Under the pieces are notes generated by a model. That model was given only the letters and a program-made list of their open reading frames with translations. It was not told where the DNA came from and made no database searches. Both the position numbers and the translations under genes were made by a program. A DNA stretch of 64,000 bases from Heterodera schachtii (taxonomy: Eukaryota; Nematoda; Chromadorea; Rhabditida; Heteroderidae), in NCBI GenBank assembly GCA_023374025.1, contig SIJG01000007.1, positions 2,918,636 through 2,982,635 on the forward strand. The letters are read 5' to 3'. Position 1 is the stretch's first letter, and each line of letters opens with the position of its first letter. Positions 19,640 through 64,000 of the stretch are shown piece after piece.

Positions 19640-21865
19640 TTGTTTCTTTTTTATCTTCTCCCTCTCTGTCCGATCTCTCTTCTCTATCTCTCTCTCTTAC
19701 CTTTCTTTCTCTCTTTCGCTCTCACTCTTGTCCTCTTTTCTCTCTCTTCTTTTCTCTTTCACTTCTTTCTCTCCTCTTTTCTCTCTCTCCCTTTCTCTCC
19801 CTTCATTTTCTCTCTCTATCTCTCATTTATTTTATTTCTCTCTTCTCTCACTCTCCTATTTTCTCTCTCTCCCTCTCTCATTTTCTCTCCTCTTATCCTT
19901 TCTCTCTTTCGCACTCTCTCTTCTCTCACTCTCCTCTTTTCTCTCCTCCTCTCTCTCTCTGCTTTTCTCTGTCTCTCCTATCTCTCTATTCGTTTCTCTC
20001 TTATTTCTCTAGCTCCTCTTTTTCTCTTTCCCCCTCTCTCTCTTCTTTTCTCTCTCTTCTTTTCTCTTTCACTTCTTTCTCTCCCCTTTTCTCTCTCTCC
20101 CTTTCTCTCTCTTCTTTTCTCTCCTCTTATCATTTCTTTCTTTCGCTCTCTCTCCCTTCATTTTCTCTCTCTATTTCTCATTTATTTTATTTCTCTCTTC
20201 TCTCACTCTCCTATTTTCTCTCTCCCAGTCTCTCTCTCTCCCTCTCTCTTCTTTTCTCTCCTCTTATAATTTCTTTTTTCGCTCTCTCTCTTTCTTCCTT
20301 CTTCTCTCTCTATCTCTCATTTATTTTATCTCTCTCTTCTCTCACTCACCTCTTTTCTCTCTCTCTCTCTCTTCTTTTTCTCTCTCTATCTCTCATTAAT
20401 TTTATTTCTCTCTTCTCTCACTCTCCACTTTTCTCTCTCCCTCTCTCTTTTTCTCTCCTCTTATCCTTTCTCTCTTTCGCACTCTCTCTTCTCTCACTCT
20501 CCTCTTTTCTCTCCTCCTCTCTCTCTCTGCTTTTCTCTGTCTCTCCTATCTCTCTATTCGTTTCTCTCTTATTTCTCTAGCTCCTCTTTTTCTCTTTCCC
20601 CCTCTCTCTCCTCTTTTCTCTCTCTTCTTTTCTCTTTCACTTCTTTCTCTCCCCTTTTCTCTCTCTCCCTTTCTCTCTCTTCTTTTCTCTCCTCTTATCA
20701 TTTCTTTCTTTCGCCCTCTCTCCCTTCATTTTCTCTCTCTATTTCTCATTTATTTTATTTCTCTCTTCTCTCACTCTCCTATTTTCTCTCTCCCAGTCTC
20801 TCTCTCTCCCTCTCTCTTTTTCTCTCCTCTTATCCTTTTTCTCTTTCGCACTCTCTCTTCTCTCACGCTCTCCTCTTTTCTCCCTCTCCTTTTCTCTCCT
20901 ATTTTTTATCTCTTACTCTTCTTTTCTCTCACACTTCTTTCTCTCCTATTTTCTCTCTCTCCCTCTCTCTTTTTTTCTCTCCTCTTATATTTCTTTTTTC
21001 GCTCTCTCTCTTTCTTCCTTTTTCTCTCTCTATCTCTCATTTATTTTATCTCTCTCTTCTCTCACTCACCTCTTTTCTCTCTCTCTCTCTCTTCTTTTTT
21101 CTCTCTCTATCTCTCATTAATTTTATTTCTCTCTTCTCTCACTCTCCACTTTTCTCTCTCCTTCTCTCTTTTTCTCTGTCTCTCCTCTCTCACTCCTCTT
21201 TTCTCTCTCCTTCTCACTCTCTCTCTCTCTCTTATTTTCTCTCCTTTTCTATACTCTTTTTTCTCTCCCCTCTCTCTCTCTTCTTTTCTCTCCTCTTATC
21301 ATTTCTTTCTTTCGCTCTCTCTCTCCTTTTTTCTCTCGCTATCTCTCATTTATTTTATCTCTCTCTTCTCTTACTCTCCTCTTTTCTCTCTCCCTCTCTC
21401 TTTTTCTCTCCTCTTATCCTTTCTCTCTTTCGCACTCTCTCTTCTCTCACTCTCTCCTCTTTTCTCTCCTCCTCTCTCTCTACTGCTTTTCTCTGTCTCT
21501 CCTCTCTCTCTATTCGTTTCTCTCTCCTTCTCACTCTCTCTCTCTCTCTTATTTTCTCTCCTCTTTTCTCTCTCTCTCTATTCTTTTCTCTCTCACTTCT
21601 TTCTCTCTCTCTCTTTCTTCTTTTCTCTCTCACTTCTTTCTCTCCTCTTTTCTCTCTCTCTTTCTTCTTTTCTCTCTCACTTCTTTCTCTCCTCTTTTCT
21701 CTCTCTCCCTCTCTCATTTCTTTTCTATCCTCCCTCTTATTATTTCTTTCTTTCGCTCTCTCTCTCCTTTATTCTCTCTCTATCTCTCATTTATTTTATC
21801 TCTCTCTTCTCTCACTCTCTCTGTCTCTCTTTTCTCTATCCCTTCTCTCTCTCTTTTGGTTTTCT
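19640..21865. repeat. 2.2-kb polypyrimidine (CT)n-type satellite
   Basis: The plus strand is almost pure C/T for about 2.2 kb. It is built from CTCTCT with recurring blocks such as ATCTCTCATTTATTTTAT. A block starting near 19895 recurs near 20465, showing longer-range tandem duplication. Long S/L/F-rich frames here, and the R/E-rich frame on the other strand, are repeat artefacts. Confidence 0.9.
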
Positions 21866-22359
21866 TCCAAATAATTATCTTTTATATTCCTAAAAGCATA
21901 TTTAAAGAAATCGAATTTAATTCAAATTCATTAGGAAACTTAATAAAAAATTTAATTTGAGGAAAAAGCAAAATACCACTTGTAAACAATTTCATAAATA
22001 AACATTTTGTTAAAAAGTTTTCTTTCTGCCATTTCTATTTTCTTTACTTTTTTCAAGTTTTCGTTTCAAAAAAAAGTCAACTTCAAAACGATACGTACGG
22101 ACAGCACCAAATTAGTATAGTGGATTTTAACAAAAAACAATAACAACAACAACAAAATAACAACGACAAAAAACAAAGTGAAGGTTGAGCAGGAAGAGAG
22201 CAAAATCATATGTAAAAGAATGGTGATAACAAAAAAAAATATAATATTCTGTCAAAATCTTTCAAAAAAAAAAAATTTTAATGAAAATTTTTATAGGCTA
22301 GGGGAGAGTGGGTAGGGGGCGTATAATTAATTGCCGATGGACGACAAATTCTTGATCGA
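21866..22359. other. Intergenic sequence downstream of the SLC25A39/40-type gene
   Basis: AT-rich sequence includes a CAACAACAA stretch near 22138-22165. It would hold the 3' UTR of the minus-strand carrier. No polyadenylation site can be fixed with confidence. Confidence 0.4.
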
Positions 22360-41719: not shown

Positions 41720-42970
41720 TAAAAAACTCAAATTAATAGCAAAGAAAAACCCAATCTGATGATGATCAATAGTGTTCATTAGAGTTGGGAATTTCATGTA
41801 AATACATATTTTACCTAAAACATTATTCTAAGTTTAATTCGGTCAATTCGGAGTGTTTGTGCGGTAAATATTACAGGAACAAAATATGTCTTACAGTAAC
41901 CAAAAACTTTAGTGTTCATTAGCGCTAGGAAGTTCATGTAAATATTGTATTTCTTCTTGAATTCCTATTTTACCTAAAACATTAATCCATGCCTAATTAG
42001 TTATTTAGGAACACCGGTGCGGTAAATATTACAGGAATACAGTATGTTTTACAGTAACAAATTTTTAAATTAGAACTCAAAACACAAAAAAAAAAATTCC
42101 ATCGATTTTCCATGGCAATCATTTCCTCCAACTTCGTCATGGCACAAGACACACATCAACTTGGCCACAAAAATTTATTGTTTTACTCGCTTCGCCCTAA
42201 AGGCTGAATCTGCCCCAATTCCCATGGGCATTTTCCGTCTTCGGCATTTCTTAAATATGAGCAAAACAAAACAAAAAAAGCCCCCCCCCCCCCATATATC
42301 CGCTTCATTTTCACAATTTCTCTAGTTTAAAATGCCATTATCCCATTTTTAATGGCATTTAAAGTAAATTTTTCGCAACATTTTCGGCAAATAAATCAAT
42401 AAATATTGTTTAAGACGACAAAAAATTTATCTATCAGCCCGCTTTTATTAAATTGACCTGTCTAAGTTGTGAAAACCGAAAAAATTTCAAAAAAAAATTA
42501 CTACAAATGAAATTTCTTCAAGTAAATTGCCAACAAAAAATTTTAGAGGAAGTAAAATAAATTAAAAATAATAATTTCAACAATAGAAAATCAATCTATA
42601 GTTGGTCGGGCGGGATCAATGCTAGTAGATTTATTACCGGGATTTATCCCGGCGTAGGGATTTTCTTTTGGGATTTTCCTGCATTTCCCCGGTTTTGATG
42701 TTGATTTACTGGCGTCTCGAACCCGGGGTCCGTTCCCGGGGTTTCCAAAATTTCCGGTCTCGACCAATTCTCTATTTTTAGAAAACAAAATGGCTCGAGA
42801 ATCCCATGGTTGCATTATATTCAAACAAATTTTAGCATATAAAATATTTAAAATTTCACAATTGGCACCAAAATTCGTACATTTTTTAGGCAGTTTTATC
42901 CCGAAGCATTTTGTTTACCTTTTCAAAACCATTACATTTATTTTCATTATTTTAAAATATTTTTTTAATT
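41720..42970. other. Intergenic region
   Basis: AT-rich DNA with a C run at 42281-42293 and two similar CATGTAAATA...TTTTACCTAAAACATTA stretches (41795 and 41935). A GC-richer patch at 42600-42780 has no clear splice structure. No gene is supported. Confidence 0.4.
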
Positions 42971-42975
42971 AAAAG

Positions 42976-43044
42976 GAAAGTGTCTCCATTCCTCAACTTG
43001 AAGAGCACGACATAAACATCAACAAAGCCTTTCACACAATCATG
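42976..43044 (+). other. Possible exon ending ATCATG|GTAAGT
   Basis: A 69-nt open stretch lies between an AAAAG acceptor-like site and a strong GTAAGT donor and reads ESVSIPQLEEHDININ. It ends in phase 0, which would fit the phase-0 start of the exon at 45992, about 2.9 kb downstream. It may be an early exon of the CXC-deaminase gene. No homology supports it. Confidence 0.3.
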
Positions 43045-43049
43045 GTAAG

Positions 43050-45991
43050 TCAGGTTGGCCGAGATTTGCTAACTATACCGCAAAAATTCGAGACTTTTCT
43101 CGGGTCCAAGACCCGAGTCCGGGTTAAAATTTTCGCTTCCTAAAAAAATTTTTACAAAAAAAAAATTATAAGTGCTATAGAGGCCTAATTTCCTGAGACT
43201 CGAGGCTGAAAAAATCCTGAGAAATTTTCTTAAGCCCGTGACTCAAGGCTGGGATTTTTTATAAAAATTTTTCATGTATAAAATATGAAAAGCCATTATT
43301 TACTTACTAATAGTTATCCTCATTAGCCACCGGCGGATGATTTGGTGTGCTATTAACTCAGTAAATTGCATGTTTTGAAATTTTTCATTTTCCACAAATA
43401 AAATATTCTCTCCTCCACTCATTTAAAATGAAAAAAACAACAATTACCTATTTGTCTCTTAAACAAAAAATCGCAGACTAAATCCAATTTAAAATTCTAA
43501 ATGCTTAGTATTTTTGTAAAAAATTCCATGGATTTTTTAAAAAGGAATTTATTTATTCAAAATGAAATTAAAATCATTTTCAAAAAATTAAAAAACCAAA
43601 ATATTAAATAAATAAATCACAACAATTCGATAATAGTTTTTTTAGATTTTTAAAGCATAATTTTGTTTTAATTTGTGAATAATAAATATTAAACAAAAAA
43701 TAAAATGAACAAAAATAAATAATTTACAAAATTCTTTTTAAAAAATCCGTGAACTTTTTCCGCACTCTGTATTTTTATATTGTTAACACTTGAAAAAATT
43801 TTTTTTAAATTATTAGCACAAATGGCCATATTTAAAAATTTTCAGCAAAATTTCGCACAAAATCCCCGCCCCACCAATAATAGGCACCATTCATTTAAAT
43901 GAAAAAAAAAAATTGTTTGTCTCATGAACATAAAAATCCTCGGACAAAATCAATTTAAATTCAAAAATCAATTGAAATGAAAAATGCTTCATCATTTTTG
44001 TTCCGTTCACCTTTTCGTCTATTTATTTTGCAAATTGATTTAGAATTATTTAAATTATTTAAATTAAATCTTTTCATATTTGGCACAAATGGTCATAAAA
44101 TTAAAAATTTGCAGAAAAATTTCACCCAAATCCCTCCGGGCTAATTCTCGGCACTATTTTTCGGCACCATTCATTCATTCATTCGTTACTATGTTTTGTG
44201 AATTTGTTGTTTTGCTTCTTCCCCCCCCCCCCCCCCCTTTGCCCCCAGTGAGTCTTTTGCAATTTTCAATTGCCCTCCCGCGCCGCCCTGCTGCTTTTTG
44301 TCTCTTTTGGCATTGCCATCAGAGAAGAGAAGCTTAAGGCACTGTGTGTGCCGTGGCACCATTGAATTGTCTGAATTGTCGCCCTCTCCATGTGTTTGTG
44401 GTCGGGGAATTGCTAATGCTTCATGCCGAGGCGCTGGGTGGGGGACGGCACTTTATAATTGGTTGCCTGGTGAGGGACCGGCGCGGCGCGGCGCGCCGGA
44501 CATGGCACTACTACTAATGGATAACTGAAAAGAACAGAAAGAGAGAGAGTGAGAGAGAGTGGAAACAAAAAAGGGGAACAGGATGAGAGAAAAAGGCAAA
44601 ACTGAGAGAATGTGATGGGAAGAGAAAAAGGCAAAACAGAGAGAGAGTGATGGTAATTGAAAAAAGGAAATGAGATAGTGTGATGGAAAGATTAGTAAAG
44701 GAAAAGAAGAAAGAGCAAAGAATGAGGGAGAGATGGAAAAATAAGAGGGACGATAGAGAGAAATTGAGTGTCTGAGATTGTGAGTTAATCAGAGAGTGAG
44801 CGAGTGAAGGGTAGAGAAATCGAGACAGGAGAGAGAGAGCGAGAGAATGTGAGCGAGAGAGAGAGAGAGAGACGAAGTTGAGCTAAAAAAGGATTAGAGA
44901 GTGAGAGAGAGGAAGAAAAAGTAAGAACCATAGATAGAGAGGGAGGGAGATAAAGAGAGAGAGAGAGAGAGGAGCCAAACTGTGAAAGAACAGAGAGCGG
45001 AGAGGAGAGGAACATGGATGAGTAAAGTGAGACAGTTTCGGACGAGAGTCGTCCCCCCTTCCCCACTCTCGAGAATTGCCATTCTCATCGGATGACCTAT
45101 GCCATGCCAAGGTCACCACCACACCAAACATCATCATCATAACATAACAATCATTGTGCCTGCTGGGGTTGTCATTATGAATGTTGCAAAACATACAAAA
45201 TTTTTGCCGCGTAAATCTTTCGCTTAATTGGCTAAAAATGAATTTTTTGTATGTCATTTAAGCCGCCCATTAAAATTTGCTAATTACCCTCTTTTGTGCC
45301 ATTATTCCGTGCCCCAAAAGATAATCCCTCCTTAATATATGCATATTTATATGAATATTTCATCGCTTCACATTGGGCAAAAAGCCATCCATTTCTCTGT
45401 CATTTGCTAAAGTGTTCACATATTCTGTGCCATTGGCCATACTCAAAAGTTTTTAAGTATTCATGATTTCCCCTGCCAAAATGCCAGAAAATTGAAATTT
45501 TGCCACATTCGGTTGCAATTTTCTACCATTTTTGAATTTTTTAAAATTAAAAAATGCTAATCTTCGATAAATCTCCAGAAATTATGGCTTTTTGTAAATA
45601 GAATTTGTTGCAAACACAAAAATAGGGGTTAACTCGAGCGTCAACAGTTCGCATCACTCGAAAATCGAGAATTGATTCCGGAGACTCGAGACTAAGAACA
45701 AACCTTCAAAAATTCTTTTTGTTTGAATTAAAATTTTTCTTAAAAATGTTTCTTTTATATGAAAAAAGCAAAAATGTGAAAATTTCGCTTTTTAATCGTT
45801 TTTTCGCAAAAAAAAAAAAAAAGATTAGCCAATTTTGAAAAATTCATGTCCATTTTTTTGGAATTTTATTCATATTTCGAGATTTTATATTCATATTTAT
45901 TTTGAACCCTATTAATTACATAATTTTTTTTTTTTTTTTTGTAAAACCCTAAAATTGTTGCCCCAAGCCTTATTTATTCAATTTTTCACAG
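43050..45991. other. Region without a supported gene, upstream of the CXC-deaminase gene
   Basis: AT-rich to 44070, then a GC-richer 44270-44525 segment with GGCGCGGCGCGGCGCGCC, which may be promoter or 5' UTR. Open frames across it are proline- or serine-rich and unconvincing. A GA-repeat tract follows. Confidence 0.4.
44525..45010. repeat. GAGAGA-rich polypurine tract
   Basis: About 480 bp of degenerate AGAGAG sequence on the plus strand, the purine counterpart of the 19.6-21.9 kb tract. The S/L-rich minus-strand frames are artefacts. Confidence 0.85.
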
Positions 45992-48900
45992 TTAAAGTGG
46001 GAAAAACGGCGTAACTCCGGCACTGCTGCAACTGCTGCTGTTGGTCCACAACAACAGAACAACGATAACAGCTCGGACACTGAACGGTCAAGTTGCCGTG
46101 CCGTTGTCGAATTTGGCGGTTGCTCACCACAAAAAGGTCCGGCAACAACAAGTACAACAACAACAACAGCAGCAGCACAACAACAACAACAACCAAACCA
46201 ACAACAGACCATCGAAAGGTGGACAAATAATTATTTGAAATTAATTTTATGGATTTTATTTATTTTTTTAATTTAATTTACTTTACTTTATTTTTTATTC
46301 GTTTTTGAGGGTTCCGAAAAGGGTGGCACTACATTTCCCCACCGCCATTCCCCGTACCCCGCGCATAGTTTCCCGCCGGAGAAATTTTAAATTTTTTTAA
46401 TAATTTAGAAATACTTGAAGAAAAAAATTTTTGAAAAATTTTTCAGCGATTTAAAATTGTTTTTGAAAAATCTTAATAATTCACCATAAAATTTTTGAAA
46501 AATCTTTTTTTCTTGTAATTTTCTTTTAAAAAACTCAGATTTTTTTTTTTCTTAAAAATCTCGCAGGAATTGTGCTCTTGTCCAAATCGGTTAATCTCGG
46601 CAACCCGTCAAAACAACCTCGGAATCGAGCTCCCGTGAAATATCTTGTCCTAAAATTTCTGTTTTTTTTTTGTTTAGGAAATTTTTTTAAATCTTTTTTT
46701 CGACTCCTGCCAAAGGAATTTATCCCCAACATTTAAAAAAAAAATTTCCAGCTGTCTCCGATAATTTTTTTCAGGGAATTTCGTTTTCATCCCCGATCCC
46801 CATCTAGTCAGGGAGAAATCTTATTTCAAAGCATGATTTCAATAAATTAAATTTTTTTTCAGCTACAATTCATATTGGCAAAACGCGTCGACCCCGCAAC
46901 CGGCGCATCATTACTACACTGGCGGGACCGGATCACTTGTTTACTCAACAATCAGTGGTGACGCACATTCCATTTGCAGGTGATCGTTGATCACTTGGAT
47001 CTGCAAATAAATTTATATTTTATGTGTCCCGTTACATTTTTAATTTTAAGTGATTAATACTAGAATATCGGCCTGGGTCTCTGGGTCCAGCAGGCCTGGG
47101 GTTTTTTCTGAACCCAGGCCAAGACTTGTGGGCCTTCTGGCTTTTTTCCTGCTGGATTTTTTTTTTCCAGAAAGACGAGGCCAAAGGCCAAGCACTAAAC
47201 CTAGTCTTGGCCCTATGTCCAGCCAGGCCTAGTCCCCAAAAAACTCGTTTTTCCTGAGCCTGGGTTTTTCCCAGAAAATCCATGCCCATGTCATGCATTA
47301 AGCTATACCCAGGCCAGCCCAGGTTTTTAATCAATTGCCGAGATATCGGCACATGTCTTGTTAATCTTGACTGATCACCGGATTTCAGTAGTAACGCGGA
47401 CGTATCCGCCCGTCTCTCCACCCGTACCCATCAGTTATCCTCTTCACTAATCCTTGTGCCAACTCCGCCGGCCACTCATTATCAGCATCATCATCATTAT
47501 CCCAATCATCATCATCATCAGCAGCAGATCACCGTTGATCCGTCCTACAATAACAACATTGTGCCAATGTCTTCACCGTCCGGCACGGGTGCCATTGGTG
47601 GTGGTGGCGGTGGTCACATTGGCATCTATCATCAAGCAAATTCGAGTAAAATAAGCAATTTTCAATTTGTGACAGGTGTCCATTTAGGAAATTTAAATTT
47701 GCTTCGTTTTTCAAAATTCTAGAGTTTTAAAATAAAATTTTGAAATATTTTTTAATGCAAAAGAATTTGAAAAATTTTTGTTAGTGTTCATTTGTTCTTA
47801 ATTTTCTAGATTTCTTCCAACACAAAAAATCGTTTAAATTTTTAATTAATTCTAATCTTTCAAAAAAAAAATTTCTTTAAATTTTTGGCGCCTTAATTGA
47901 AATGGTGCTTTACATTTTAGCTCATTACGCTTTTCAAATTAGCTTACTAATTTTGTTTGCTATAAAATTAATGGGTCCACTGCGTTTCGGCGCTCGCGTT
48001 TCGGCGCTCGCGTTTCGGCGCTCCCGTTTCGGCGCTCGCGTTTCGGCGCTCGCGTTTCGGCGCTCCCGTTTCGGCGCCAGCATGTTTTTGGCTATAACTT
48101 TTTTCTTTGTAAACCAAATCCAACATTGTTGGTGTCGTTCGAAAGCTTAATCTATTTAGAAGCTTTTTCTAAGCTATTGCTTTGCGATTAGACAATTATC
48201 AAAACAGTTATGCATGAAAATTGCGAAAAGTCGAAATTTTAGAAGTTTTTTCTTAATAAAATTTTTTACAGGCTTGAAAAACTTTTCGTTTTTGATAAGG
48301 CTAATAGAGCATGTTAAGAGCTTTCGAATGATACCAAGATTGTTGGATTTGGATGCCAAAGAAAAAAGCTTAAATGGAAAAACGAGCTGGCGCCGAAACG
48401 GGAGCGCCGAAACGCGTGGGTCCCAAAATTAATACCCTTAATAATAAAAATTAATTAATCAATTATACATATCGCACAAAAGCAGTTAAAAATAATTAAT
48501 TTGCAGCTGCAGCGGCGGCAAATGTCAGTGCGGCAATCCCGGCAATGCCATTCTGTTGTGAATGCCATGCAACGGTAGGTGTAGTAGTAGCCCCATTAAA
48601 ATTTAAATTAAAAATTTTTGAAAAAATTTCCAGCAAAATCGTTGCAGCAACGACAGTTGTCCCTGTTTTGCGACACGGCGCATGTGCGACGAGCACTGCG
48701 AATCGGCCAGGTGTTTTTTTGCGAAGGCAAAATTCATATGCAACAAATTTTTGAATTCCGCTAAAAAAAGACGCATTTTTTTTGTAAAATTTTCAAAAAA
48801 TAATTTGAAAATTAAATTAAATTAGAGCTAATTTGCATAAAATTTATGAATTATATATTTAAATTCACCAAATTTTTCAACTAAAACCATTTTAAAAAGT

Positions 48901-51900
48901 AAAATATATATTTTTAAATTGAATTTAAATTTATACACCATTTAAAAAAATAAGTTATAAAAAATACATTTTAAACTCATCATAATTTTTTTTGTTTCAA
49001 GTTAAAACATTAAAAACAATATAAATAAAGAAATGCATTCTTAAATTAAATTCATTAAATTTCAACTTATATCATTATATATTTTATATAATGGTATAAG
49101 TTGAAATTTAAAACAATCAAGCAAATTTTTTAATTTATTCATAAGTTAATTCATCATAATTTTCAAGTTGTTAACATTAAAAAAAATATAATTTGAAAAT
49201 TAAATTAAATTAGAGCTAATTTGCATAAATTATGAATTATATATTTAATTCACCAAATTTTTCAACTAAAACCATTTTAAAAAGTAAAATATATATTTTT
49301 AAATTGAATTTAAATTTATACACCATTTAAAAAATAAGTTATAAAAAATACATTTTAAACTCATCATAATTTTTTTTGTTTCAAGTTAAAACATTAAAAA
49401 CAATATAAATAAAGAAATGCATTCTTAAATTAAATTCATTAAATTTCAACTTATATCATTATATATTTTATATAATGGTTATAAGTTGAAATTTTAAAAC
49501 AATCAAGCAAATTTTTTAATTTATTCATAAGTTAATTCATCATAATTTTCAAGTTGTTAACATTTAAAAAAATATATAATTTTTTTTAAAATTAAATTCA
49601 CCAATATTAAACCATTTTATAAAAAATAAAATTATCTTTAAAAAATAAATAATACATTTTTTAATTTAATATTTTAAATTTGTAAAGGTACCGCGGCGAT
49701 TGTTTGAACCAAGCAATTTGCAAATGCTCATGCGAGGCGGACCCATCAAAACCGGCAAAAAATGTGTGCACAAAGTCCAACTGTGACTGCTTGCGCATCA
49801 AGGAGTCCTGCTCAAAGGCGTGCCAAATTTAAATTTAATTTAAATTATTTAAAATTATTTGAAAATAATTTTTTTTAAATTTTTTCAGTTATGCGCCTGC
49901 AAACAAATTTGCAAGAACAAAGAGCCGCCAAAACGGGCGGCAAAAGTGAACAAGCCGGCACAGGGGTGTGCTTTTTTTTTTGTTTGGGAGCAGCTCGTCT
50001 CTCACCATATCTTTTACCCACAAAAATCTTTTTTAGAAATTTTCCACTTTTAAATTTTATCAGAAAAACACAGAAATTTTTTCTTTTAATGATTTTTTGG
50101 GAAAATTTTGAAAAAAAACTTGTAATTCTTCATAAGATTTATAAAAAAATAGTATTGGAAACTTTTCAAATGAAATTTTCTTCGAAAAGAGTTTAAAAAA
50201 TTTTTTTTTGAAAAATTTTTATGTGAGAATTTAATTTTCGTGAGCAAACGTCGGGGAATGGGGAAGGGGAAGAATGTACTTTTTCAAGAAGTTTTTTTCC
50301 ATTTTTCATTTAAAAATAATTAAAAATTTCACATTTTTGGGTTTTGGATTAGGCTTCGCCTTGTGAAATTTTTAAAAACTTCATGCTTAATTACATGCAT
50401 ATATAATAATTAAGTCAAAATGGAAAAAAAACATTCAGATGTCAATGTGCCAAAGGCAAGAAACAGTGTAGCAAAAAGGAGTGCCAATGCCGTGGGGTGT
50501 ACGAGTTTTGCTCAACCAGGTAAAAAAATATTTACACAAATTTTTAAAAATCACAATTAAATAAATTTGCTCTATTTTTTATTGACGGCAAATTTTTCAA
50601 AGTTTCTTCAAATATATTACATTTAAGCTAAAAATCTCGAAAATAGGCTAAATATGGTATGAAAAATCATCTTAGAAGGTAAAAAAAAAAAAGTATATAA
50701 TTTATTAATTTTGAAGAAAATTGAGCAAAAAATCGAGAATTTTCCATTTTTGGGCATAAATTTCCAATTTTTGAAATTTTCATTTCTTATTAACAGGGAA
50801 CGGATTTATATGTGCCAAAAAACTCCCAAAATATGTGCTAAATCTCCAAAAAATGCCAAAAAATGAAGAAAAACTGGTCAAAAAATAAGTTTATTTCTCA
50901 AAAAAGTCTCGTTTTTTATCCATTTCGCTAGCACAATGCTAATCAAAAGCATTTCAATGCTTTTTGGCCTAAAATTTTTCTCGCTCTCATAGATTTACTT
51001 ATTTTCCGGAATTTTTTTTTCGCAAAAATACAAATTTTGCCTTAAAAGCGAAAATCATGAAAAGGGTCAAAAAATGCAAAAAAGAAAAAATTGAAAACTT
51101 TTGGGGACATTTTGCCAAGAATTTGATAGCAAAAAAATTGAAATTTTGTAAAAAAAAAAAAAAATTCAAATTTTATCAAAAAATCGTCAAAATATGTGAC
51201 AAAAACTGCCGAAACCCCAAAATATGTTTTTATTCCCAAAAAGCCCAAAATATGTTTTTATATGTGCTAAAAACTCGCTCTGATTGAAAGGAAAACAAGT
51301 AAAAATGCTATTTTTGAGCTTTTCATGCGATAGCATATGCGCAAAAAAAATAATATGTAAAAACATATAAATCCGTTCCCTGCTTATTAATATTTTGAGA
51401 AAATATACACAAATACATTTCTCGAGAAAAGTCTTTGGATTTTTGGATATCACTTATCAGTCTCGGATTCGATTATTATTATTTATTTTTTTTACAGTTG
51501 CAAATGCGGCGGAGATTGTGCCAACGGAGCATCAAAATTCCATGTGCCTAAACATGTTCAGAATTGTTTCCTGGAACATAAACATGAGAGCAGGTCCATT
51601 GGGAATTAATTAATTAATTTTTTTTTGTTAAATGGATTCTTCTCTATGAAAATGTGTAAATTTTATGGAATTTAATTCAATTTATTTTTAAATTCCAAAA
51701 AAAAAAGTAACAGAAATTTTTCTAAAATTCAAAAAAGGAAAAAAATTTTCTACGGGAAAATTTTAAAAATTCAAAAAAAAAAAATTATTTTTTTTTGAAT
51801 CACAAAAAAAGAAATATTTGTTGAAGTTTCTTTGAAAAATGGAATTTTTTTAATTTTCAATAAAAGAAAAGATTTTTCCATTGAAAAACTTAAATTTCAA

Positions 51901-54900
51901 AAAAAAAAAAAACTTTTGCCCCATAAAAGTGGCCTAATTGTGACACTAATTGGCGACGGTTACATTTATCGTGGCGACTTTTTCCACGACTCAAAGAATG
52001 AGCCGCACGTGGAGGAGCAATTAGTTGCAGCAATTTATGATCTAATCTCCAAGTACAAAGTGAGTAGAAATGATATTAGAAGGCATTAATATATATTTTT
52101 AAATTTTTTCTATAAATTTCGCCCAAATTTTAAATAAAATTAACTTTTTTTTATGCTACAATTTGGTCATTTTTTTACATTTTAATTGCCGGAAATTTAA
52201 TTCTAATTTCAACTGCTAATCATCCAGCACTCATTACTCAAATTTTGATGTAAAATTAATTACAATTTTTTATTTTTTTGTAATTTTAATAGTATAATTT
52301 GGTCTATTTTTTTTTAATTTTAATTTTCATGGCCAACCCATTTTTACGGTTTTTACATTTTAATTGCCTGTCATCAATTAATTTTTTTTTTAACTGATAC
52401 TACCATTCACAAATTGAGGTTGATTATTTTTACTCTCGAGCTTTTGGGTGTAAAATAAGCTATCATTTTTTGTACACTATGTGTAATACTAAAATTTTGT
52501 CCATTTTTTTTTAAATTTTAATTTTCAATGGCCAACGCCCATTTTTATGGCATTAATTGCCTTAATTTAATTTTAATTTACCCCACAAAATTGAGGTTGA
52601 TCTGTACGAAATTGTCATTTTTGTGTCCAAGAGTCCATGCTTTCACCAGGATTGTGAGCCCAAATGTGAGGTGGTGGACGAATGCAAATGCAATAAAGGT
52701 GGTTTTGCATAAATTTAAGAAATAAATTATTTTGGATTGTGGAAAAATTCAAAAATTCAAAAAAAAAAAAAAAAAAAAATAGAATTTTATTAAAAATGTA
52801 AAAAATAAATCTGGCAAATTTTTTTTTGTTAGGTTTTTCTTGGAAAATAAATTAAAAAAGAAACAAAACAAAAAAACGATCTGCTGCTATATACAATATT
52901 ATTTAACAAACAAAATTAGAAAATATATTGTTTTAAATGTATTTATAGAACAGATTTATTATGGAAAGAAAAAGCCCAAAAAATGTAGCTGCGATATAAA
53001 CAAAACGATGAAATACTGGATTAAAAATTAGCAAAAAAATATACAAAAATTTTTCTCAAAAATTGGTTTGCTATTTTTCGCTCTTTAGGGGGGGGGGGTG
53101 TGTTTTTTGTTGAAATTTTTGATCTTTCTCTGGGTATCTTTGCGAAATTCTCTGTGAAGCCTAATTTTAATGAGCTTATTATAAAAAAATCATTTTTCAA
53201 GCATGTGCTAAACTGTTGGGATTGCTTTTGTCAAAGGTGCGCAAGGAGTTGAGCAAGGTGGATGTGCGAATGACAGTCAAATTTTTGTGAGTTATCGTAT
53301 TTCCTAAAATAGAAGAGCCCCCGGGGCTTTAATTTAAATAATATTTTTGTAAAAGATATCCGCATTTGAACCGTGGTGATCTGTACACCAAACAGGGCAT
53401 TTTGTCCATGCTACAGTCAGGCATCAAAGTGGAACCACTGTTGTTGAAGGTGGTTTTTGTTGGAAAATCTGGGGGTCATATTTTTGTAAATTTAATGCAT
53501 TTTATCGTCATCATTTTTTGCCCAAACGGTCAATTTTTGCAAATTTTTGGACAAAATAAAAATTTGCTTTTTTTGCCCAATTATCTTTTAATTATAAAAA
53601 ATTTTAAAAATCTTTGTTTTTTTTTTTTTCAAATTTTTCTTGCAAAAAACTCATTTTGAAGAAATATTAATTAAAGGATTGGAGTGCTGTCATGGATTGG
53701 GCGCCACACCCAGAACATAAGGGCGAATATTTGCAGGTGGTGTAACTATTCTATTGTCTTGTATTTGTTGTAATTACATTGATCATTATTCAAATAGGAG
53801 AATTTAAAAATTCTATAAAATAGTCCATTAATTAATTATTAATTGATATTTAATTAATTTTCAATAGTTGTGGGGCAATCACAATTTGGACAGGGCGGTC
53901 GCCCAATCGCAAGCATTCATCAACGAATGCCGGTCAGTCATTCAAAACTCCATAATTCATAATTGTTTGAAAAAAAAAGTTTGGAGAAAAGCCAATTTAT
54001 CCACAAAAAGGCTGCACATAATTACGGATTAAGAAAATCACGTTTTCGGCATTTTGGGGTCTCCCTAATTACGGTTTAATGATGTTCGTAAAAATCTCTC
54101 CATAATTATCGGTTACGAATATTTTTCCGTAATCGAAATTCAATTACATGCAACCCTGATACACATACAAGTAATTGCAGCCCTAATAGGTATATATGTA
54201 ATATTATTTTATTTAAATTTGATTTTTTAAATTTTTTATCGATTTATAATTTAAGGCGTGCCCTTGGCCTGTCAATGAAATTTTGGGTGGCAGAAATCCA
54301 CGAGATTGTCAAAAATACCATTCTTCACTGTAAGTTGTCTACGAATTTTTTAGCGAAAATTTAAATTTTTCAAAAAAAAAAATTTTTTTCGGTGGGGGGT
54401 TGGGAATTTCCAATTTTTTTTTAATTTAATGCCTAAAAAGAATACAATTTGTTACAGACTCTGAAATTCGTGGCAAATGCAATGAGTTGAACGATGCACT
54501 CAAGCAGTTAGACCTCACCGCAACCCCACACAAAATTCGCACAACTCCCAGCAAGCGGCGTTCATTCATCGACATGCACGGTGGGCATGGGAAAAAAAAA
54601 ACCAGAATCTGAGGCCTAAGAATTTGAGAAAATCGAAATCCGAGGCCTGGCTAAGTTGGACCGGAAAATGTTCGGAATTTCGAGGCCTTGAAATGGCAGG
54701 AAATCGGAATTCTGATCGCCAAAAATGATTGGAAAAACGGAAGAAGCCGAGTTCCTATGCCTGAAAATGATAGGAAAACATGTTCGAAAACCGGAATACT
54801 CGATGCTTGAAATGGCAGTGAATCAGAATTCAGAGGGCTAAGAGGGTTAGAAAATCGGAATTTCATTTGTTCGAATTCAAAAGTCCAAGGCCTAAAAATT

Positions 54901-56787
54901 AGAGGAAAACGGAATTGCATTGGCTTAAAATGTTAGAATTCGGAATTTCGAGGCCTTTTTTTTTAATAAAATTCTTATTTTTTTTTTTTTGTATTAAATT
55001 TTGATTTTAAAAAATTAATTTAAATTTATATTTATATTTTCAATCAATTATATTCATATATTTCATTAATTTATGTTTAGAATTGCGTGACAAGCTGTTG
55101 ATGCGCGGCGGCACTTCAACAGAGGGCGGCGGAGCGGGCAAAGGCGCTAAAAACGGCAGTTCCGTTTCCGTTGCAAGGTCCACAAAATAACGGAAGAAAA
55201 TTAAAAAATTTTTAACAAAACCGAAAAAAATTTCAGATGAGTAAATCCGAAGGATTTTTTTTTTTTTTTTTTGCTCATTAACCCTATTAAAAATTTTTCG
55301 GTTTAATTTTCAAAATTAAAAGACTTTTTTTCGAATCGCCAAAAATGAATCCTTTTTTTTTTGTTGCATTTTTGGATGGTTTTTTTGCAAATCTTAATGA
55401 AATCGTTTAAAATTTCTTTGTAAAAATGTTAGGAACATAATTTTTCGTTTTTTTTTTTCCACAAAATTTTATGAAATATTATGAAAAATTAAAAAAAAAG
55501 TTTTTCCAAAAAAGAGATATCAAAAATTAATTTTTAAAATACTAAAAGGCGATTGATTCTAAGCCTATTTAGGTCATTTTTATGGGATTTTATGCCTAGT
55601 TCACTTTTTACGAAGAATTTTCCCAAAAAATAACAATTTAAAAATTTTTATTTATATATTTTAGTACACATATGTATTTGGGAATTTTTGTACATATTTG
55701 ATACATATTTTAGCATTTTTTATACATGTTTTATTTACATATTTCGCAATTCTTCTTACATAAAAATGGGCAATGGTGCAGTTTTGTGGTTTCTGCGTAA
55801 AATAAATTTAAAAATTTAAGAAGCATTTTTTCTAGAATAGAAAAGTGCGCTGACTACGAATCCGAGCTCGGATTTTGCAAAATCATTGATTTTGTCTATG
55901 ATTTTTCCGTCAAGTACATGATTTTTTCTAAAATTTTATTATTTTAAAAAAATTTTATTTCCTATGAATTAAGGGGTAATAAAATGAGCTGGTCATGAAT
56001 CTGAACTTTGATTTCGTTAAATCAATGTTTTTGTCTATGATTTTTAGCAAGTATCACAAAAAAATAAATTTGCAGCCAAGCGGACTCGAACCCAGACCCC
56101 CTTCTTATATGGCCCCTAAAGGCCAGTAATTAAATTTCAAAAAATCGTAAAAAAATTAAAAGCTTGACTTCTCCAGACATTCAATAGCTCATTCGAAAGC
56201 TCTTTTTAAGCTCTACAACATCTGTGTATTGGTTTTTTAAGCCCGACTAATTTCCTTAAAGTTTTGGAGAAAAGCAAGTACTTTACGAAAAAATCATAGA
56301 CAAAATCAATGATTTTGCAAAATCCGAGCTCAGATTCGTAGTCAGCGCATTTTTCTATCCTAGAAAAAATGCTTCTTAAATTTTTAAATTAATCTTACGC
56401 AGAAACCACAAAACTGCACCATTGCCTAAAAATGGAAGCCCTGATAATTACTGTTTTTAAACTTTTTTTTTTTTTTTTGTAAAACGCTGTAAAAATTTTT
56501 CAATTTTTTTCCGCCCAAATTTTCTTATAAAAAATTCTAAGATTTTCCTTATTCATTTCAGCGAAGAAGCACATGCGCAAGCGATGGTCGCCAGCTTTTG
56601 TGGCCGTTCATTTGACGACGGCGAAACAAATGAAATTGCACAACGCATTAGAAAAGCAACCGCCAGCATCAATTTGGAAATTGAGGCAATTAGCAAAAAC
56701 AAAAAAAAAATTACCCGACTTCCTAAAATACAGCCCCCCCCCCCCCGAATTGGTGCCCTCCCTGAAATAAAGCCACCGGGAGCATAG
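45992..56787 (+). CDS. CXC-domain / AID-APOBEC-like cytidine deaminase fusion protein (5' end missing, 3' end uncertain)
   Basis: Nineteen exons join in phase: 45992-46218, 46863-46979, 47389-47645, 48507-48574, 48634-48710, 49688-49817, 49889-49965, 50439-50519, 51498-51593, 51930-52059, 52596-52698, 53202-53286, 53356-53449, 53677-53736, 53868-53932, 54256-54329, 54458-54580, 55081-55177, 56562-56787. The N-terminus is rich in Q, T, H and G. Exons 5-9 encode cysteine clusters like tesmin/LIN-54 CXC DNA-binding repeats (CQCAKGKKQC, ECQCRGVYEFC, CKCGGDCAN). Exons 10-16 read as a deaminase: HVE (52006-52014), SKSPC (52625-52639), then CAKLLGLLL, a GILSMLQSGIKV strand-helix and DWSAVMDW, in the AID/APOBEC order. 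His-to-first-Cys spacing is 32 residues (31 in AID). Deaminases of this family convert cytosine to uracil in DNA or RNA. No ATG was found in the first exon, so upstream exons exist. One intron appears GC-AG. Confidence 0.8.
47973..48424. mobile_element. MITE with GTTTCGGCGCTC repeats, 9-bp target duplication, in a deaminase-gene intron
   Basis: The ends GGGTCCACTGCGTTTCGGCGC and, inverted, GGGACCCACGCGTTTCGGCGC are flanked by AAAATTAAT on both sides (47964-47972, 48425-48433). The left end carries six copies of a 12-bp TTTCGGCGCTC(G/C)CG-type unit. The interior matches the CGG-family MITEs (ATCCAACATTGTTGG, ATCCAACAATCTTGG inverted), so the termini of this family are variable. Confidence 0.8.
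48798..49570. repeat. AT-rich tandem duplication, two copies of about 388 bp
   Basis: GAGCTAATTTGCATAAA at 48825 and at 49213 marks two almost identical copies, in the intron before the exon at 49688. Each copy contains a palindromic segment around TATATAATGGTATAAG. Confidence 0.85.
50794..51382. mobile_element. hAT-like MITE, TIR CAGGGAACGGATTTATATGT
   Basis: Ends CAGGGAACGGATTTATATGT are inverted at 51363-51382. A perfect 8-bp duplication CTTATTAA flanks it (50786-50793, 51383-51390). The CAGGG start and 8-bp duplication are typical of hAT. The element lies in the intron between exons 50439-50519 and 51498-51593 of the deaminase gene. No transposase frame. Confidence 0.9.
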
Positions 56788-57166
56788 AGCATACATGTAC
56801 AAGGGGTGCGCCCAGTCAGACCCCCATACGTCGGACGTTTGGCGCAGGGGGGGTGCGCCAGGAGCAATTTTTCTTACATCGGCCCCTATTTTTTCCCGGC
56901 GACCTTTTTTTTCCAAAAAACTTTGTGGGAAGGGGGTGGGGCGGTCCGGCGGTGGTGTCGATAGGCGCCGTCGGGAAAATTTTTTGAATTTTTTATGCGT
57001 TTTGCTAAGGAAATTGTTCATATTTTAACTTTTTTCCCCTTCGGTACGACCCACCCCACGACGACCCCCCCCCCCTCCTTTACAGCCGCCCCCCTTACGA
57101 CGCACGTGGGGGGGGGGGCGTGCGCCGGCGCACCCCTTGTTCATGTATGAGGCGCTCTATTATAGG
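56775..57166. mobile_element. GC-rich fold-back element near the 3' end of the deaminase gene
   Basis: ATAGAGCATACATGTACAAGGGGTGCGCC is inverted near 57120-57166 with mismatches. Between them are several G and C runs and a CGGTGGTGTCGATAGGCGCCG motif seen in other elements. It may have displaced the original end of the last exon, since the current stop (56785-56787) lies at its left edge. Confidence 0.55.
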
Positions 57167-58096
57167 AAATATATATATATATATATATATTATTTGATTC
57201 AATTTTATGGGTGCGGATTTTCAATTTTTAAATGTTTTTTTTTGCAGCTTCGGTTCGACGAAAAACGCGTAAAAAAAAAACTTTTTTTTTTCCGCGGAAA
57301 TTCTTCGATTAAGCACTATTATTTATCAGTGTACATAATTTGGTCACTAAAATAATTATGCCGCCACTATGTTGGCATTTAGCAACTCTATTTTTGCCAC
57401 TTTTTTTTTCAAGATTTGCTGAAAAAATTCAAGTCAACATTTTATTTTCATAAAACTATGGTTTTTTAATTGAATTTTTTAAAAAATTTTTGCCCCTTAT
57501 TTATTAAGGCCCGCACCCTAATTATTTGTTCAAACCTAGATTTTCAAATTTTTGTTTTAAAATAAAAACCTTTTTTTATATACATATGTATGTATATATT
57601 TTTTGTTTATTTATAAATTTAAATTTATTATGTGTTTTACAGGCACTGATGGAATTTTTGGCGCATAAAGGAGCAATTGGATAGAAAAATTGATGGAGGA
57701 TTTAAAAAAAATGGATTAATTCTAAAAAAAAAAAAAAATCATTTTTTGTGTGACTTAATTTTTAATCATTTTTTTTTATGTACAAAATCGAATTTTTATG
57801 CCCATTAATTTTATGTGTCGTCATTCTAAAGCTTCTGCTGATGGGACAAATGTGCTTTTTTTAAAATTAATCTTAATTTTTTGTTTGTTTCGACAAAATG
57901 ACGCAGGGACAAAATGTCGCCGGGGACAAAGTGTTGCATCCCCTAACAATAAGCAAAAAAAAAATATAGAAAAAAAAATTACAGTATCATAAATGATAAG
58001 GGTACTTATTTCCTTTACAGGCTACAACATGCATTTTCAAAAATTCTTTTTGTTTTAATCATTGATGAGAAAACAAGTCTCAAGGGCTTTTTAGAG
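57166..58096. other. Region after the deaminase gene, with a possible alternative last exon
   Basis: A (TA)n run at 57167-57190 follows the fold-back. At 57643 a TTTTACAG acceptor precedes 42 nt in phase 0 that read ALMEFLAHKGAIG and stop at 57682-57684. This could be the original terminal exon. The rest is AT-rich and unassigned. Confidence 0.35.
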
Positions 58097-62576: not shown

Positions 62577-64000
62577 TCACCAAATTATGCTGTAGTGTCT
62601 CGTTGCCGCATTGGCAAAACGTTGTCCGTTCACAATCAGATCGGTGCCTTCAATTCGCGCATCAATCTTTGGCCCGTCAATTTGGTGCCGTACTCCGTCG
62701 ATGACCACCCAGTTGTTTTGGCCTTGGCCAGTTTGTGCCCGATTTTCTGCTCCATGACTCTGTTGTTGCGCATTTGCTTGTGCTTCTTGGCTACGTGCCC
62801 TTTTATGGGGGTGAGAATTTAGCAAATTTAGTGAAATTTAGCAAAAAATTGAAAACATGAAGATTTTTGAGATATCCAAAATGTATAAATTCAATTTAAT
62901 ATAAAATTCCAGGCATGAAAAAAGCCAGAGCCACGAGAAAAACCTAGACCCAGAGAAGGCATAGCAATGAGTTTCCAGGCATATGCCGACCGAAACATCG
63001 TGGGAAGTTTGAATTTTTTTGCCTTTATTTTTTGGTACATAAATAAAAAATTTTGAAAATTTGCACGTTAATTAGCGTTTTTGAAATGCTTCCGAACAAC
63101 AATACCAACATTTTAAATTTTATTCATAAATTATTGTAATTTTTAATTTAATAAAGGAATTGTGTATAAAAAGTATCCCTTTAAATAAGGAAATGATCAC
63201 CTCATTTATTCTTCAAATTGGAGTAAGTTTTTTCACAATTTTTTTAATTCTTAATAAATATTTTTCGTATTTTTTAAAATTATTCATTTTTTTGATAATC
63301 ATAAATAAAGCCCTACCGGTCTACCTCAGTTCGGCCCCCACGGTTCGGCCCCAGCATGGTTTTCCACTATAATTTTCTTTAACTTTTTTCTTTGTCAACC
63401 AAATCCAACATTGTTGGTATCATTCAAAAGCTTAAACTGTTTAGAAGTTTTTTCTAAGCTATTGCTTTGCGATTAGACAATTATTAAAAAAGTTATACAT
63501 GAAAAAATGGAAAAGCATGCTGGGGCCGAACCGTGAGGGCCGAACTGAGCGGTTCCGAGCCCTACATATGTGGTGCTCTTGCTTCAGTTCGCATTCGTTG
63601 AGCATGTGCTGCCCTTGCTTCTGTTAGAACACGTTGCGCACGTTGAACATGATGTGCCATTGCTTCTGTTACAGCTCGTCGCCTATTTGCCATTGCTTCG
63701 GTCCGCATTCGTTGAGCATTTGCCATTGCTTCTGTTTGAACACGTCGCGCACTTGCCACTGCTTCTGTTTGAACACGTTGCGCATTGGTCATTGCTTCGG
63801 TTTGAACACGTTGCGCACGTTGAACATATGCCATTGCTTGTGTTACAGCCCGTCGCCTATTTGCCATTGCTTCGGTCCGCATTCGTTGAGCATTTGCCAT
63901 TGCTTCGGTCCGCATTCGTTGAGCATTTGCCACTGCTTCTGTTTGAACACGTTGCGCATTTGCCATTGCATCACTTATCACTCGTTCAGCATTTGCCAAA
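62577..64000 (-). CDS. 11-residue-repeat protein with alternative last exon D1 (5' end beyond the window)
   Basis: The exon 63566-64000, open to the right edge, encodes tandem 11-residue repeats of the type NAQRMRTEAMA, with variants such as NRRRAVTEAMA. It is Ala/Arg/Glu-rich and predicted helical. It ends at ACATAT|GTAGGG in phase 2, which fits the phase-2 acceptor of exon 62577-62799 (ARSQEAQANAQQQ, then a GVRHQIDGPKIDARIEGTD segment, ending HYSIIW). All four downstream exons share this phase, so each could serve as last exon. Function unknown. 11-residue amphipathic repeats occur in LEA-type and lipid-binding proteins; repeat-rich effectors are also known in cyst nematodes, but neither is shown here. 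Confidence 0.65.
62830..63308. other. Intron of the 11-residue-repeat gene (left part)
   Basis: AT-rich, containing a duplicated stretch also seen at 61020-61180 and 62060-62250 (CCAGAGCCACGAGAAAAACCTA). No further feature. Confidence 0.4.
63317..63557. mobile_element. MITE of the CGG...CAGTT(G/C)GGCC family inserted at a splice donor
   Basis: The ends CGGTCTACCTCAGTTCGGCC and the inverted CGGAACCGCTCAGTTCGGCC are flanked by a perfect duplication AGCCCTAC (63309-63316, 63558-63565). On the minus strand that duplication reads GTAGGGCT, which is the donor of the upstream exon, so the exon keeps its donor. Confidence 0.88.

Follow-up and report, generated by a model that had tools for sequence, protein, structure and literature searches.

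A nematode gene predicted to join CXC-type repeats to an AID/APOBEC-like deaminase

We describe a gene located in a 64,000-nucleotide stretch of the Heterodera schachtii genome (contig SIJG01000007.1, positions 2,918,636 to 2,982,635 of the forward strand; hereafter the window) that, as judged from its sequence, encodes a single protein in which three CXC-type repeats precede an AID/APOBEC deaminase domain, a fusion that recurs across nematodes. The reading we favor, to which we assign a probability just under one half (about 0.48), is that the product likely acts in the nucleus, tethered to DNA or chromatin, as a C-to-U deaminase whose housekeeping role is conserved. Those AID/APOBEC enzymes that are best known serve immunity and evolve rapidly. 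In contrast with them, the protein described here has changed little across nematodes, has kept its catalytic residues, is joined to a CXC region and carries potential metal ligands inside an active-site loop. If it is active, nucleic-acid deamination would have a fixed cellular job throughout an animal phylum; if it is inactive, it would provide a second APOBEC2-like case of a deaminase fold turned chromatin factor. Should Caenorhabditis elegans possess the gene, these possibilities would be directly testable in that species; ZK287.1, listed in one paper with no function given, is a tentative candidate for it, and the P0017 cluster of 40 sequences may contain the C. elegans orthologue.

The deaminase domain was assigned by profile and by predicted structure. 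A preliminary description of the window had proposed an AID/APOBEC-like deaminase and placed its HVE and SPC motifs 32 residues apart, and both points were borne out. The protein matches the Pfam family APOBEC_N (PF08210) with an E-value of 4.1e-25 (89.2 bits against a cut-off of 25), each of the 25 orthologues searched scores above that cut-off (53.0 to 107.3 bits), and the distance from H414 to C446 is 32 residues. Structure models of two orthologues, one of them from Romanomermis, predict an AID/APOBEC fold for the domain. All of the Foldseek matches listed, the best 50 of 61 at E <= 0.001, were AID/APOBEC proteins, as were the 50 matches listed for each of the two models in a VIA comparison, with APOBEC3H and APOBEC3G as the top matches of the second model. 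The catalytic motif was readable in 45 sequences out of 70, a set made up of 69 retrieved proteins plus the window protein, and 43 of the 45, among them the divergent P0065, keep HxE. Among the 25 sequences that the pattern did not read, P0063 has HVEE by alignment; in P0025, P0033, P0035 and P0039 both flanks align and the HxE stretch is absent from the gene models; and in the others that stretch lies outside their coverage. Searched against PDB sequences, the entire protein returned two weak cyclase matches and nothing else; a deaminase profile searched in the same way gave only two weak matches, APOBEC3G (E 0.57) among them, and NCBIfam yielded matches far under cut-off only.

The preliminary description had overlooked a cysteine-rich insert that separates the two likely zinc cysteines. 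SPC is present in 48 of the 69 retrieved proteins, and all 48 conform to the pattern SPC[FY]HQxCxPxCx5Cx5C; of the 21 proteins lacking SPC, 19 are fragments short of that stretch and two (P0021 and P0025) are garbled there. The consensus following SPC reads FHQDCxPKCxVVDECxxNKAC, with helix alpha-2 beginning at its final cysteine, and H448, C451, C455 and C461 are invariant in a 17-sequence alignment. Both orthologue models render the insert as a low-confidence loop. Two candidate zinc-site spacings are present in the same stretch, PC-x4-C (to C451) and PC-x20-C (to C467). The start of helix alpha-2 at the last cysteine suggests PC-x20-C, with C446 and C467 as the putative catalytic zinc pair and PC-x4-C through C451 as the alternative. 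In AID, only two residues lie between the two zinc cysteines. The four invariant residues H448, C451, C455 and C461 would suffice to hold a second zinc.

Upstream of the deaminase, the tesmin/LIN-54-like cysteine spacing reported in the preliminary description is present as two strict nine-cysteine CXC units, at residues 273 and 330 of the window protein. When the 139 residues concerned were shuffled 200,000 times, four of the shuffles gave at least one strict unit and none gave two; on this result and the APOBEC_N match, chance assembly of the architecture was rejected. The accompanying claim that this is a CXC DNA-binding region holds for the spacing and fails for the hallmarks of LIN-54. 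The minor-groove tyrosine before the central CxC is absent from every row that can be read (35 for repeat A, 39 for B and 36 for C, each out of 70), and even at E values as high as 1 the Pfam TCR profile does not match the window protein; with TCR under its cut-off and the tyrosine absent, membership of the LIN-54 family was rejected. In repeat B, arginine stands directly before the central CxC in 31 of 39 readable rows, with asparagine in the window species, a position that we take to be that of the minor-groove arginine of MSL2. According to PMC4974476, the LIN-54 tyrosine is required and arginine is no substitute for it, MSL2 inserts an arginine into the minor groove, and the CXC domains described there bind DNA.

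Homologues, retrieved as clusters at 90% identity, were nematode proteins wherever an organism was named (32 of 32 among the 35 hits of a first search, and 8 of 8 among the 29 hits of a second); a third search, limited to scoring the 7,997 candidates with the most words in common, added five proteins. Since these searches rely on shared short words, relatives may also exist elsewhere. Compared with P0001 of Heterodera trifolii, no residue differs in the deaminase (214/214) or the C-terminal tail (128/128), and a single one of 139 differs in the CXC region; identity over the aligned N-terminal part is 95%. With the deaminase of the window protein, that of Caenorhabditis bovis shares 86% identity, that of Nippostrongylus 85%, that of Trichinella 71%, that of Trichuris 67% and that of Soboliphyme 61%. 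Across 16 orthologues, the most conserved blocks are the active-site parts (insert, alpha-2, and beta-4 to loop 7), with mean identities of 0.86-0.91; the value is 0.91 for loop 7 with its strand, whereas the N-terminal 226 residues are poorly conserved, with a mean of 0.09. One of the five proteins added by the third search, P0065 (722 residues), is a divergent relative with the full layout: it has CXC repeats, HAEE and the insert, and its identity to the full-length members is 31-36%. Three Trichinella records (P0030-P0032) show the deaminase joined to an acyl-CoA dehydrogenase and are named as that enzyme, probably a gene-model merger that conceals the family in Trichinella. Profile searches of the H. 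schachtii genome with NAD1 and APOBEC_N returned nothing; read exon by exon, they missed even the gene described here, and are therefore uninformative on paralogues.

Retention of HxE and of the insert are both expected if catalysis is under selection. Since the catalytic residues are kept and the whole pocket is fixed, the pattern points to an enzyme under selection that acts on an unchanging substrate rather than an arms-race factor, and on that basis a nuclear CXC-tethered editor is preferred, with a non-editing chromatin factor second. In such an editor, the CXC repeats would coordinate zinc and clasp nucleic acid, with no sequence reading of the LIN-54 type, and a basic KIRTTPSKRR stretch may direct the protein to the nucleus. 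Catalytic zinc would be held by H414, C446 and C467, with E416 shuttling protons, and H448, C451, C455 and C461 could coordinate an additional zinc, by which the mouth of the active site would be shaped or gated. Candidate substrates are single-stranded genomic DNA exposed at the bound site and nascent RNA. A bolder form of the proposal would have a phylum-wide and nearly invariant targeted base editor, in which CXC repeats dock on chromatin, a second zinc gates the catalytic loop, and deamination is programmed and essential, for instance as a DNA mark or a nascent-RNA edit, and is not defense; this we consider unlikely.

Several observations weigh against a tethered editor. Two strict nine-cysteine units are found only in the window protein and P0001. 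Among the 35 proteins in which the region's start is present, looser gaps give at least two units in 20, one in 12 and none in three (in a control of 100,000 shuffles, one unit arose in 495 and two in none), and many aligned orthologues have one added residue in repeat B or an extra cysteine in repeat C. Pfam TCR matches 8 of 25 orthologues, all below its cut-off (14.6 to 17.9 bits against 23.5), a PDB search with a CXC profile gave no match at E up to 1, and the region was modelled at low confidence. Given the modelling, the TCR and PDB results and the spacing across the family, we can only infer DNA binding. On the deaminase side, the tryptophan of SWSPC, present in APOBEC3G, is replaced by lysine in 43, arginine in five and asparagine in one of 49 sequences, so that the substrate pocket differs; we treat this tryptophan as a common rather than a defining trait of AID/APOBEC deaminases. 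In addition, two divergent fragments, P0057 with HAVE and P0058 with HATE where HxE would be expected, retain the zinc insert. Lacking the catalytic glutamate, they are possibly a catalytically dead branch, and they indicate that the fold can outlast catalysis.

These last two findings are also what speaks for a non-editing chromatin or transcription factor, in which the deaminase fold would serve as a nucleic-acid or protein-interaction module and the CXC repeats would contact DNA. APOBEC2 offers a model for such use of the fold, and slow evolution extends beyond the active site, the tail included. The HxE kept in nearly all readable sequences, reaching as far as P0065, and the concentration of the highest conservation in active-site blocks argue the other way, and we judge this reading unlikely, though by no means negligible. 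An RNA editor, in which structured RNA would be bound through the zinc sites of the CXC repeats and the insert so that specific transcripts are recoded or marked in the manner of APOBEC1, has a slim chance in our estimate: the best rows of the second model are APOBEC3H and APOBEC3G, by which the fold cannot separate RNA from DNA enzymes, and the CXC domains described in PMC4974476 bind DNA. A DNA mutator directed at transposons or viruses, of which the preliminary description had suggested the transposon form, would be in line with the best-known members of the family, and the window does hold many tandem repeats. Arms-race APOBECs evolve fast, however, and the slow evolution seen here, with 67-71% deaminase identity to Trichuris and Trichinella, argues against a mutator. 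Protein searches, with hits clustered at 90% identity, likewise showed no expanded family of the APOBEC3 kind, though Diploscapter pachys has two entries (P0023 and P0033) that may be paralogues or assembly copies. We regard this proposal as improbable. That two adjacent genes were joined in error, for which the long introns might speak, is highly improbable and was rejected, as the CXC-deaminase order is repeated in the predicted proteins of many nematode genomes and in P0065 despite its distance.

The gene model was built on an assembly of 178.5 Mb in 356 contigs (GCA_023374025.1), with the splice chain based on conservation in orthologues and on splice signals. As previously described, 19 exons between 45992 and 56787 join in phase with no internal stops, every acceptor in this chain being AG and every donor GT, save one GC after 49817. 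The end given for the final exon (56787) had to be corrected: a GC donor closes the exon at 56685, and 56686-56787 is intron. The closest orthologue terminates in ...EIEALMEFLAHKGAIG, with similar endings in others by alignment, and for this reason the exon end was moved and the true C-terminus placed at 57643-57684. At the 5′ end, a methionine precedes LKWEK in the cyst and root-knot nematode orthologues P0001-P0003, with extra residues upstream in P0001 and P0002, and an ATG followed by GTAAGT at 43042 is consistent with that arrangement. The coding gene thus likely spans 43042-57684, with 21 coding exons and 719 residues (Table 1). A candidate exon near 52950-53030, which reads KKPKKCSCDINKTMKYWIKN and then a stop, was omitted because skipping it preserves the phase and agrees with the orthologues. 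The intron between 47675 and 48507 contains a 14-bp tandem repeat, GCGTTTCGGCGCTC, with 6.9 copies at 47982-48077.

Table 1. Features of the CXC-deaminase gene, in window coordinates
Feature	Position	Strand	Evidence or remark
Start codon, coding exon 1 (likely)	43042..43044	+	GTAAGT donor at 43045; Met before LKWEK in P0001-P0003; upstream frame stops at 42970
Coding exons 2-4, low-complexity Q/H/N-rich N-terminal region	45992-46218, 46863-46979, 47389-47675	+	Mean identity 0.09 over 16 orthologues
Degenerate CXC repeat A, residues 229-265; exons 5, 6 and start of exon 7	48557..49703	+	
CXC repeat B, residues 273-311, nine Cys; exons 7-8; GC donor at 49818	49725..49912	+	
CXC repeat C, residues 330-363, nine Cys, then C-x-N; exons 9-10	50440..51519	+	
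AID/APOBEC deaminase domain, residues 378-592; exons 10-18	51562..54459	+	PF08210 E 4.1e-25; fold matches of orthologue models
Catalytic motif HVE (H414, E416)	52006..52014	+	HxE in 43/45 readable sequences
SPC, zinc cysteine C446	52632..52640	+	
Conserved 20-residue insert FHQDCEPKCEVVDECKCNKA (H448, C451, C455, C461), interrupted close to its end by an intron	52641..53203	+	48/48 SPC-containing proteins
C467, start of helix alpha-2, putative second zinc cysteine	53204..53206	+	In the Romanomermis model the helix begins one residue ahead of the equivalent Cys
Loop 7 equivalent YPHLNRGDLYTKQG	53357..53398	+	Within the most conserved block; mean identity 0.91 for residues 486-508, 16 orthologues
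Basic motif KIRTTPSKRRSF, possible nuclear localization signal	54532..54567	+	Conserved in alignment
Coding exon 20, GC donor at end	56562..56685	+	
Last coding exon, ALMEFLAHKGAIG-stop	57643..57684	+	Agrees with orthologue C-termini; overlooked in the preliminary description

Elsewhere in the window, a 2.2 kb pyrimidine-strand tract with abundant TC repeats occupies 19643-21856 (the bin 20001-22000 has a GC skew of -0.908 and an AT skew of -0.727), and complex tandem arrays lie close to both ends, at 378-1265 and 63611-63998. Pfam searches with 8 of the 29 long open reading frames of the window gave no match at E up to 0.01.

Automatic database names already flag both the CRC and the APOBEC_N domains of the family. 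In the titles and abstracts that we searched, neither the CXC-deaminase fusion nor the insert is described; the likeliest earlier family surveys lie outside that coverage, and the fusion may therefore already be in print. Deaminase-like proteins of C. elegans and Nematostella had been identified before 2018, according to PMC5956068, and a 2026 review lists AICDA, APOBEC2 and APOBEC4 as conserved in invertebrates, nematodes included (PMC12993061). PMC11305532 presents CDD-2 as a cytidine deaminase that clusters with nucleoside deaminases, and we take CDD-2 to be a different protein from the one described here.

Among known systems, the AID/APOBEC enzymes (AID, APOBEC1 and APOBEC3; Pfam APOBEC_N) share with the present protein HxE, the SPC zinc motif, the order of strands and helices and the predicted fold; they differ from it in that here a CXC region is fused, some 20 cysteine-rich residues are inserted between the likely zinc cysteines, lysine, arginine or asparagine replaces the SWSPC tryptophan, and evolution is slow throughout the phylum. 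NAD1 (novel AID/APOBEC clade 1, PF18778) is the second-best Pfam family of the window protein and matches 16 of 25 orthologues at E up to 1, but the window protein scores 21.7 bits against a cut-off of 27, and APOBEC_N is far stronger. APOBEC2 is a slow-evolving family member and a reported chromatin binder, although the top titles of our literature search did not include that report; here Pfam APOBEC2 matches only weakly, in 3 of 25 orthologues, and we know of no CXC region in APOBEC2. The LIN-54/tesmin/TSO1 CRC proteins resemble the present one in their tandem CXC spacing and C-x-N, and 23 of the 35 homologues from the first search carry the name CRC domain-containing, whereas the minor-groove tyrosine is missing here, Pfam TCR stays below its cut-off and LIN-54 has, to our knowledge, no deaminase. 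The CXC domain of MSL2 is single, as described in PMC4974476, and it differs further in that the window species has asparagine at the arginine position and the PDB profile search did not recover it; it is alike in its CXC spacing and in the arginine before the central CxC that repeat B has in most orthologues. The pre-SET CXC region of EZH2 is a further comparable domain.

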